From Bosea sp. ANAM02 (GTDB lineage: Bacteria > Pseudomonadota > Alphaproteobacteria > Rhizobiales > Beijerinckiaceae), in NCBI RefSeq assembly GCF_011764485.1, contig NZ_AP022848.1, forward strand, positions 1,392,001 through 1,456,000: DNA of 64,000 nt, read 5' to 3'. The notes under the pieces were generated by a model. It was not told the DNA's origin, did not search any database, and saw only the letters and a program-made list of their open reading frames with translations. The position numbers and the translations under genes are program-made. Positions 26,848 to 30,133 of this stretch are shown here, piece by piece. Positions within the stretch are counted from its first letter, which is position 1. Each line of letters begins with the position of its first letter.

Positions 26848-27579
26848 TCAGCCCTCGTCGTCCTCGTCCTCGGCCGGGCGCTTGAGCTGCTTCAGCTTGG
26901 CGAAGACGGAATCGACGTCGATCGCGGCCTCCTCCTCGCGCTTCGGCCGGCTCATGTCGGCGAAGGGCTGGCTCTCGCTGGGCTTCGGCTCCGGCGCGGT
27001 CGCTTCCTCGACGGTCAGCAGGGTCGAACCGGCCTCGGCGAGCGCGGCCGGGCGGTCCTTGGCGGCGCGGCCGACCTCGAAATCGAGATCGATCTGCGAG
27101 CACAGGCCGAGGCTGACCGGGTCGATCGGGGTGAGCTGCTGGGCGTTCCAGTGGGTGCGGTCACGGATCTGCGCGATGGTCGACTTTGTCGTGCCGATCA
27201 GGCGGATGATCTGCGCGTCCTTGAGCTCGGGATGGTTGCGCAGCAGCCAGAGGATGGCGTTCGGACGGTCCTGGCGCTTCGAGACCGGAGTGTAGCGCGG
27301 GCCCTTGGTGCGCTTGATCTCCGGCACCTTCACCTTGCGCTCGGCGAGCTTGAGGTGATGGTTCGGGTTCTTGGCGGCGCGCTCAAGCTCCTCGCGGGTG
27401 AGCTGGCCAGAGGTGATCGGGTCGAGGCCCTTGATGCCGGCGGCGACTTCGCCGTCCGCGATGCCGCGCACTTCGAGCGGGTGCAGCTTGCAGAACTCGG
27501 CGATCTGCTCGAAGGTCAACGAGGTGTTCTCGACCAGCCAGACCGCGGTGGCCTTGGGCATCAGCGGGGTTTGTGACAC
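26848..27579 (-). CDS. trcR: Cell-cycle transcriptional regulator TrcR (DUF1013)
   Basis: 243 residues from a GTG at 27579 with AGGAG 8 bases upstream; the longer frame from 27693 has no ribosome site. Conserved N-terminal core: MPKATAVWLVENTSLTFEQI, FCKLHPLEVRGIADGEVA and LIGTTKSTIAQIRDRTHWNA, the last resembling a helix-turn-helix. An acidic C-terminus ends DEDDEG. The DUF1013 family is known as TrcR, an alphaproteobacterial cell-cycle regulator; its exact targets are not well defined. It is convergent with prpE. Confidence 0.85.
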   Translation of the reverse strand: MSQTPLMPKATAVWLVENTSLTFEQIAEFCKLHPLEVRGIADGEVAAGIKGLDPITSGQLTREELERAAKNPNHHLKLAERKVKVPEIKRTKGPRYTPVSKRQDRPNAILWLLRNHPELKDAQIIRLIGTTKSTIAQIRDRTHWNAQQLTPIDPVSLGLCSQIDLDFEVGRAAKDRPAALAEAGSTLLTVEEATAPEPKPSESQPFADMSRPKREEEAAIDVDSVFAKLKQLKRPAEDEDDEG

Positions 27580-27787
27580 GGGACGGTCTCCTCTTCGCCT
27601 TCGCGCCGCCGCTCGCAGGGGCTCCAAAAGGCAGGGTCGCGGACAATAGCTCTCATGCGCCGACCGGCCTCCCCGGCCGGCCATCCAAATCATCGACGAT
27701 GAGCAGGATGGCGCGCCTTATAGGCGAGGGCGGGGCAGGTGTCCATGAAAAGCGTGTGATTGCGGTGGCGTGCTCGCGAACGTTTTC

Positions 27788-29043: not shown

Positions 29044-29244
29044 ATGTCGATATTCCCGGAGGACGACCGCCCCAAGCCGAAGAGTGTGCATGAGATCGGG
29101 CAGGACCTGTCGGTGCTGTCGCTGGCCGAGATCGACGAGCGCATCGCGGCGCTCAAGACCGAGATCGAGCGGCTGATCGAGACGCGGGCGCGCAAGGACG
29201 CCTCGCGCTCGGCGGCGGACGCGTTCTTCCGCAAGCCCGCCTGA
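29044..29244 (+). CDS. DUF1192 family protein
   Basis: 66 residues from the ATG at 29044 preceded by GAGG. It contains DRPKPKSVHEIGQDLSVLSL and IDERIAALKTEIERLIET, a conserved motif followed by a short helix, as in DUF1192. The family is restricted to alphaproteobacteria and unassigned. A hairpin follows the stop. Confidence 0.87.
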   Translation: MSIFPEDDRPKPKSVHEIGQDLSVLSLAEIDERIAALKTEIERLIETRARKDASRSAADAFFRKPA

Positions 29245-29260
29245 AAAAGCGTCAAAAAGA

Positions 29261-29281
29261 AACGCCCGTTTACCGGGCGTT
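29261..29281 (+). terminator. Stem-loop after the DUF1192 gene
   Basis: AACGCCCG-TTTAC-CGGGCGTT, 16 bp after the stop. The U-run is poor (AATGATT), so it could be a weak terminator for DUF1192 or the 5' boundary of the RNA downstream. Confidence 0.5.
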
Positions 29282-29289
29282 AATGATTC

Positions 29290-29399
29290 CAAAGTATGAA
29301 TCGCATCATCCAGTTTGTCTGGATGTCGAGTGGCTCCTGCCCACTCTGTTTGACGCCTCCCTGTTGACCTTCGAGCCGCCTTTGGCGGCTCTTTTTTTG
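29290..29399 (+). ncRNA. Candidate trans-acting small RNA, AbcR/alpha-r15-like
   Basis: Three stem-loops follow one another in a gene-free stretch. They are CATCCAG-TTTGT-CTGGATG (29307-29325), GAGTGG-CTCCTGC-CCACTC (29328-29346) and a terminator GAGCCGCC-TTT-GGCGGCTC with seven U (29373-29398). The second loop exposes CUCC, and the single-stranded linker before the terminator carries CCUCCCUGUUGACC. Both can pair with Shine-Dalgarno sequences. This layout, size (~110 nt) and the two CU-rich anti-SD sites resemble the AbcR (alpha-r15) family that represses transporter mRNAs in Rhizobiales. Family membership is from memory and unconfirmed. No promoter motif was found, so the 5' end is a guess. 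Confidence 0.6.
29373..29399 (+). terminator. Strong Rho-independent terminator of the candidate small RNA
   Basis: An eight-base-pair GC-rich stem with a UUU loop, followed by seven U. It points to the plus strand only, since the minus strand lacks a U-run. Confidence 0.92.
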
Positions 29400-29481
29400 T
29401 CCGCACGTTCCCTTGCGTAGGCTGGTCGGCTCAATCTTGTGGAGCCGCCTGCCTTGTTGTCGCCACAGCGGTTTAGCCTCG

Positions 29482-29492
29482 TTAAGGTTAAC
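29482..29492. promoter_or_regulatory. Candidate CtrA-like half-sites upstream of rcdA
   Basis: TTAAGGTTAAC contains two TTAA motifs. The CtrA consensus is TTAA-N7-TTAA, so spacing is wrong for a full site. rcdA is CtrA-linked in Caulobacter. Weak evidence. Confidence 0.2.
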
Positions 29493-29602
29493 GGCACCTT
29501 ACCGGCGCTGGAAACCATGATCGGCGCTATCCTTGCGACATCGGCGGGCATATCCGTGACGCGTTCCAGAGGCGCACGGGTTTGTGCCGATGGGAGACAC
29601 CA

Positions 29603-30133
29603 ATGAACGACGCCCAGTTGCTCGATCCGCAGACGGAAGAGGGCGCGATTTCCTTTGCACGGGGTTTCGTGCGCTCCGAGGCCTTCATGCTGCTGTTTCG
29701 CGAGGGAATGGGACTGGTCGAGGAAACGGCCGGCTATCTCGACGGGGACGGGCGCAAGGACGCTGCCGCCCTGCCGCGCGATGCCTCGCTCAGCTATGCC
29801 ACCGAGAGCATGCGTCTGACGACGCGCCTGATGCAGATCGCCTCCTGGCTGCTGGTGCAGCGCGCCGTGGCGGAAGGCGAGCTCACCGCCGAGCAGGCCC
29901 GCACCGAGCACAACAAGGTCAAGATCGGCGACCCGATGGCGCCGCCGGCCGAGCATGTCGTGGCGCAACTGCCGGAGCGTTTGCGCGACCTGATGGCCCA
30001 TTCCTTCCGCCTGCAGGAACGCATCCGCCACCTCGAAGGCCAGATGTCGGGCGCGGCGCCGGTTCGAACGAACGTGAATCCCGTCCTGAACCAGCTTGCC
30101 AGCCTCGAGGCCCGGCTGGGCTTCGGGCGGTAA
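29603..30133 (+). CDS. rcdA: Protease adaptor RcdA (DUF1465)
   Basis: 176 residues from the ATG at 29603. The DUF1465/RcdA core is a helical bundle: EGAISFARGFVRSEAFMLLF, GLVEETAGYLDGDGRKDAAA and TTRLMQIASWLLVQRAVAEG. In Caulobacter RcdA links CpdR, PopA and ClpXP to degrade CtrA and other substrates. Ends with an alpha-helix and disordered tail. A bidirectional terminator lies between it and rpmE. Confidence 0.85.
   Translation: MNDAQLLDPQTEEGAISFARGFVRSEAFMLLFREGMGLVEETAGYLDGDGRKDAAALPRDASLSYATESMRLTTRLMQIASWLLVQRAVAEGELTAEQARTEHNKVKIGDPMAPPAEHVVAQLPERLRDLMAHSFRLQERIRHLEGQMSGAAPVRTNVNPVLNQLASLEARLGFGR

Follow-up and report, generated by a model that had tools for sequence, protein, structure and literature searches.

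The locus described here lies on the plus strand of a Bosea-type genome, between a gene coding for a DUF1192 protein and rcdA (DUF1465). All coordinates refer to the window, that is, to the whole 64,000-nucleotide stretch of DNA from Bosea sp. ANAM02 that was analysed, and the features are collected in Table 1. The three named RcdA proteins nearest to the one encoded in the window are all from Bosea (92-94% identical). A gene of the cell-cycle regulator family TrcR (PF06242) is located close to rcdA, at 26851-27693 on the minus strand, and is also found near the element in several relatives. The initial annotation of this DNA had proposed a conserved small RNA (sRNA) that adjoins a cell-cycle gene, a description borne out by the neighbours DUF1192 and rcdA. 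The span given for it, 29290..29399, holds for the hairpins and the terminator, but its start at 29290 probably falls within the promoter. A 45-codon open reading frame (ORF) over the locus was considered as a gene for a small protein and rejected; 6/12 Bosea-type relatives lack its ATG, and frame shifts occur in some.

Table 1. Features of the interval between DUF1192 and rcdA (window coordinates)
Feature	Position	Strand	Basis
DUF1192 gene, upstream neighbour	29044..29244	+	PF06698, 81.1 bits
CtrA-type box TTTA-N7-TTAA, predicted to overlap the -35 region	29269..29283	+	conserved in relatives
GATTC-N8-GAATC, two GANTC (CcrM-type) sites overlapping the -10	29285..29302	+	window and 12/12 Bosea-type relatives
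Predicted -10, TATGAA, 11 nt after the box	29295..29300	+	TATNA-like columns in 44 thinned promoters
Putative sRNA, BjrC1505 family, about 93 nt	29306..29398	+	RF02356 match and fold; start predicted from the -10
Hairpin 1	29307..29325	+	fold; 3/4 counted pairs change on both sides
Hairpin 2, CUCCUG at the loop (29334-29339)	29328..29346	+	fold; nearly invariant
Weak hairpin presenting CCUCCC (29356-29361), seed CCUCCCUGUU	29350..29367	+	fold; nearly invariant
Intrinsic terminator	29373..29398	+	3/6 counted pairs change on both sides
Second, weaker box TTAA-N7-TTAC, presumed rcdA promoter	29488..29502	+	pattern in 17/77 downstream stretches
rcdA (DUF1465), downstream neighbour	29603..30133	+	PF07323, 183.4 bits

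At gathering cut-offs, the only match of any Rfam family in the window was BjrC1505 (RF02356), which covers 29262-29398 with 94.9 bits (cut-off 50) and model positions 1-140, so that the element matches the whole model. A genome search found the element as a single copy. Within the order, 245/297 genomes have an RF02356 match at E 0.001 and 212/297 one over the cut-off, and in a class-wide draw 25/240 genomes had a match, two of them from the window's own family. A weak match to ar35 (RF02346) was also seen in the window's genome (L001 1501-1620, 34.2 bits, cut-off 45). The initial annotation had assigned the element to the AbcR (alpha-r15) class. Its view of a conserved sRNA with anti-Shine-Dalgarno (aSD) sequences and AbcR-like anatomy stands, but the membership does not, as the element belongs to RF02356, and the covariance search for alpha-r15 and alpha-r14 that it had proposed returned neither family among 11 matches up to E 10. 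No function of BjrC1505 was found in the literature, in which the family is named only as a table entry, and in the open-access full-text literature that was searched we found no link of any sRNA to the rcdA locus or of BjrC1505 to CtrA.

The predicted transcript (29306-29398) has a folding energy of -36.5 kcal/mol; its shuffles average -21.15 (z -5.26), and 0/200 of them were as good. The successive hairpins that had been read from the letters were recovered at 29307-29398 on the plus strand, with covariation in hairpin 1, and so was the terminator, with 8 pairs, of which 7 are G-C, followed by seven T. CU-rich aSD sequences in a loop and a linker had been noted as well, and both are present, as CUCCUG in hairpin 2 and as CCUCCC; the latter, in what had been read as the linker, is presented by a weak hairpin. 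For the conservation analysis, 38 copies (set A2) were thinned from 86 loci chosen by the core motif. In these, standard pairs make up 97.4% of the pair cells and 6/22 pairs have changes in both partners (mean of 1.3 in shuffles; reached by 0/500); for further pair types, one of five covariation measures, 39/500 shuffles reach the observed value. The covariation is confined to hairpin 1 and the terminator, with three pairs each. Hairpins 2 and 3 hardly vary and therefore give no covariation evidence. All 38 copies agree in the letters of the two aSD stretches, an invariance that is partly due to the choice of the set, because the loci were picked by that motif; the core motif does vary in copies found by the covariance model. 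Conservation of the terminator only, which would have spoken against the sRNA, is ruled out, since both the sequence ahead of the terminator and hairpin 1 are conserved as well.

In an alignment with 12 Bosea-type loci, conservation outside DUF1192 starts at TTAA-N7-TTAA. ChIP-seq in Hyphomonas is reported to give TTAA-N7-TTAAC as the consensus for CtrA (PMC7200025). As a TATNA-like -10 stands 11 nt beyond the box, the transcript probably starts at about 29306. Because the box and this -10 place the start there, the first ~45 positions of RF02356 are probably promoter, and in this the Rfam model would differ from the element: these positions contain the TTTA-N7-TTAA box, and 14 non-standard pairing marks fall within them in the window, versus 4 in the rest. 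An Rfam model that seemingly includes promoter DNA would mislead structure and target predictions. The GATTC-N8-GAATC pair occurs in the 38-copy set only in the 5 Bosea-type rows, and a single GANTC near TTAA was seen in 11/68 other named loci.

The box pattern TTWA-N7-TTAA was found in 37/38 thinned copies, 22 of them with the strict form, where it should be noted that 16/38 are Rfam hits and that the Rfam model itself includes the box. Other spacers (0 to 15) gave 0 to 8 of the 38 copies, and composition-matched shuffles had the box in 0.275 copies on average and in no more than 3. A set without Rfam-model bias was obtained by fetching 80 named loci via the RcdA protein and searching them with a covariance model of the transcript alone, R1. 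An R1 match upstream of rcdA was present in 77/80 of these loci (20/77 of these copies helped to build R1), and L182, one of the three without a copy, has only 37 bases upstream of the match. Among the 77 copies, 71 have the pattern, 39 of them in the strict form, and the six misses show, by eye, a box with one substitution each. The background in the same loci, mostly coding DNA, was 3 in 924,154 strand-bases, and no other TTWA-N7-TTAA occurs in the window on either strand. Two observations count against the box. In 42 further copies, many of them from other orders, the pattern is present in only 24 (five of 47 rows were left out: L088, which is a second copy of the L064 place, L106 with E 0.068, and three weak extra hits). 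In addition, the window's own box has TTTA rather than TTAA in one half; a TTAA-N7-TTAA-type box as in the CtrA regulon does stand at the promoter, but it is one position off the strict form. Judged from the sequence, the element is a genuine sRNA that belongs to a known family other than AbcR, and what is newly noticed here is a strongly conserved CtrA-type promoter box.

The neighbourhood is conserved as well. Each of the 30 best Rfam loci has rcdA downstream of the element and on its strand, and DUF1192 was found upstream in 27 of them. Among 20 genomes without an Rfam match that were looked at, 13 have rcdA; in nine of these 13, R1 detected a copy upstream of rcdA that is diverged and in part weak (E 6e-8 to 1e-3), and the other four have no copy even by R1. 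Seven genomes (G064, G100, G159, G045, G085, G003 and G054) have neither a DUF1465 match (E 0.001) nor a BjrC1505 match, and rcdA and BjrC1505 may have been lost together in them. Two tandem copies of the element were seen in L097, at 31-127 and 224-326 (R1 35.3 and 46.7 bits).

We consider it likely that the element is a CtrA-activated, trans-acting aSD sRNA of the BjrC1505 family with its own promoter, which represses mRNAs with a strong Shine-Dalgarno sequence. Through a CtrA box overlapping the -35 region of this promoter, CtrA would turn the sRNA on when its own level is high during the cell cycle. The sRNA would then expose its two aSD sequences, CUCCUG and CCUCCCUGUU, and cover the ribosome-binding site of mRNAs with a strong Shine-Dalgarno sequence, leading to translational repression. 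This last step is suggested because the related sRNAs AbcR1/2 and SisA act by such motifs, and the sRNA would adjoin rcdA because both belong to the CtrA circuit. Computed support comes from the family, the structure, the conserved box and the neighbourhood; we infer that the sRNA is transcribed and where it starts, that CtrA binds and acts as an activator and not as a repressor, and what the sRNA targets. The element is a good candidate for a cell-cycle-controlled aSD sRNA of the Hyphomicrobiales, and with the conserved CtrA box BjrC1505 gains, in much of the order, a candidate regulator and so a position in the cell cycle that can be tested.

Such an sRNA could also provide a possible answer to a published puzzle. 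In the S. meliloti ChIP-seq data of Pini et al., CtrA is reported as bound at the rcdA promoter region, and in the same report rcdA is given as unchanged on CtrA depletion (PMC4433202). A CtrA-driven sRNA at this place would explain why CtrA is bound at rcdA without an effect on rcdA. Upstream of rcdA, CtrA motifs have also been described in S. meliloti (PMC3616915) and in agrobacteria, in which rcdA is described as having more than one start site (PMC10469942). The DUF1192-rcdA gap of S. meliloti and Shinella contains a box, hairpins, CUCCCUGUU and a terminator. These two copies score 27.2 and 31.7 bits with RF02356, below the cut-off, and have E-values of 7e-6 and 1e-6 with R1 (for 13.8 kb). 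Both species have a second perfect box nearer to rcdA, and the S. meliloti CtrA ChIP peak may be there instead. A 3.7-Mb record labelled as S. meliloti plasmid pSymB (L266, CP090106.1) carries rpmE, rcdA and tandem ar15 copies and looks like the chromosome. In L266 coordinates, the sRNA box is at 1165-1179 and the second box at 1339-1353. More tentatively, and with somewhat less than even confidence, we speculate that a CtrA-driven aSD sRNA beside rcdA is an old alphaproteobacterial cell-cycle part that damps many mRNAs with a strong Shine-Dalgarno sequence, that the adjacent RcdA later helps to remove CtrA, and that the promoter of this sRNA accounts for all or part of the S. meliloti CtrA peak at rcdA.

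With regard to targets, the 10-nt complement of the seed CCUCCCUGUU stands before an ATG at 36 distinct sites in 12 genomes (38 rows, two counted twice), compared to 20 sites for a permuted Shine-Dalgarno control. Solute-binding proteins are encoded downstream of 11/36 of these sites and of 6 of the 20 control sites; ORFs too short to scan, two in the test and one in the control, were counted as not solute-binding. The share of solute-binding proteins is equal in test and control, and this crude test therefore shows no specific preference for transporter mRNAs. That the seed complement is commoner than the permuted one (36 versus 20) is weak evidence only. The three seed sites in the window's genome lie before a DsrE-like gene, a short-chain dehydrogenase gene and a gene for a solute-binding protein.

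An alternative is that the same sRNA is made without CtrA control, from a box that is a relic or belongs to another regulator, and that the RNA is constitutive or under stress control. We regard this as unlikely, although it is the most probable of the alternatives; related aSD sRNAs do use other factors, AbcR1 being described as dependent on LsrB and AbcR2 on RpoH1 (PMC8844928). Against it stands the pattern of conservation, in which the half-sites and the 7-nt spacer length are kept while the spacer sequence drifts. The information content amounts to 1.85 bits per column in the box versus 0.35 in the spacer and 0.09 in the flank, where the box columns are high by selection because the 44 rows were thinned from the 71 rows that have the box. 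The binding of CtrA at the S. meliloti rcdA promoter region argues in the same direction, as does the company that the motif keeps elsewhere in the window's genome. The strict form TTAAC-N6-TTAA has 19 strand matches there, corresponding to 13 sites, and a reversed control has 6. ORFs were scanned beside 8 of the 13 sites, and five of these sites adjoin an MCP and a GGDEF gene, a GGDEF-EAL gene, ddl, fliL and a gene of the flagellar rod; at the remaining three, the neighbours code for a lytic transglycolase, a methyltransferase and an extensin-like protein. We take this gene set to resemble the CtrA regulon, and the flagellar, chemotaxis and ddl genes thus marked by the same motif speak for CtrA rather than for another regulator.

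Next in probability, and also unlikely, is that the element acts as an rcdA leader. CtrA would then start a long rcdA transcript that mostly ends at the terminator, read-through would set the level of RcdA, and the short RNA would be an attenuation product. The position before rcdA, kept in nearly all of the RcdA-fetched loci, fits such a leader, and rcdA is among the agrobacterial genes reported to have more than one start site (PMC10469942). In some genomes outside the order, however, the element and its box follow DUF1192 but precede other genes, for instance an enzyme gene of PF01053 (Cys/Met metabolism; L087 and L089) or an EamA gene (L100); rcdA was not found within about 1.5 kb in these loci, in which very diverged or farther genes are possible. 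An element that stands before genes other than rcdA speaks against a mere rcdA leader. In addition, 17/77 downstream stretches carry a separate box (TTAA-N7-TTA[AC]; other spacers of 3 to 11 gave 0 to 2), and no alternative antiterminator fold was seen in an unsystematic look.

Processing of the sRNA out of the DUF1192 mRNA, as its 3' end, is very unlikely: DUF1192 does end about 60 nt before the predicted start, but a conserved box and -10 lie between its stop codon and hairpin 1, and in L091 the gap from DUF1192 to the element is far longer. That the element is an AbcR (alpha-r15, RF02345) sRNA can be practically dismissed, although it shares loop and linker aSD sequences with AbcR1/2, since 29150-29480 gives no ar15 match up to E 10, while the tandem copies of S. 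meliloti, our positive control, score 110.2 and 106.5 bits, and since the neighbours are DUF1192 and rcdA and not lsrB. The best ar15 score in the window's genome, 28.3 bits, lies at another place and below the cut-off of 40; an earlier ar15 genome search was silent in all its controls too and is alone no demonstration of absence.

The element was also compared with known systems. AbcR1 and AbcR2 are described with a first aSD motif in the 5' hairpin loop and a second one between the stem-loops (PMC8844928); the element likewise has a loop and a linker aSD motif, which is a property and not proof of kinship. AbcR sRNAs are further characterised by Hfq binding and by transporter mRNAs as targets. 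AbcR is encoded next to lsrB, in tandem in S. meliloti, in contrast to the single copy of the element by DUF1192 and rcdA. The alpha-r8 sRNAs (MmgR, SisA-D) resemble the element in having an aSD seed with CCUCCCU before the terminator, and SisA is reported to repress through its seed (PMC12559287). There are weak cross-matches both ways, by RF00519 (suhB) on the element with 25.1 bits, below the cut-off of 41, and by R1 on suhB loci. The alpha-r8/MmgR 10-mer UUUCCUCCCU differs from GACGCCUCCCUGUU in the window, with the CCUCCCU core common to both. Unlike the element, 0/30 suhB loci have DUF1192 or rcdA nearby and 0/30 have the box upstream (spacers 5 to 9), and both suhB-type (RF00519) and BjrC1505-type sRNAs coexist in the window's genome. 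By these comparisons, orthology with MmgR/suhB is rejected as membership; the shared seed remains.

GsrN, a general-stress sRNA, was considered since its paper names Bradyrhizobium, and was rejected; its homologues outside the Caulobacteraceae are described there as placed by nearness to phyR-ecfG (PMC5869019). EcpR1 of S. meliloti is, like the element, a conserved Rhizobiales sRNA tied to the cell cycle, but it is reported to lie downstream of divK-pleD, to carry the loop UCCGCCGCAUCU and to be stress-induced (PMC4414408), and with the element at DUF1192-rcdA an identity of the two was rejected. CcnA of Caulobacter, likened here by description only, differs in being 182 nt long, in lying in the replication origin and in acting on ctrA and gcrA, according to its report (PMC8959179). 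The same report presumes that CtrA activates CcnA through a box near -23, and the box of the BjrC1505 element would accordingly have a close counterpart there, with a predicted position of -24.
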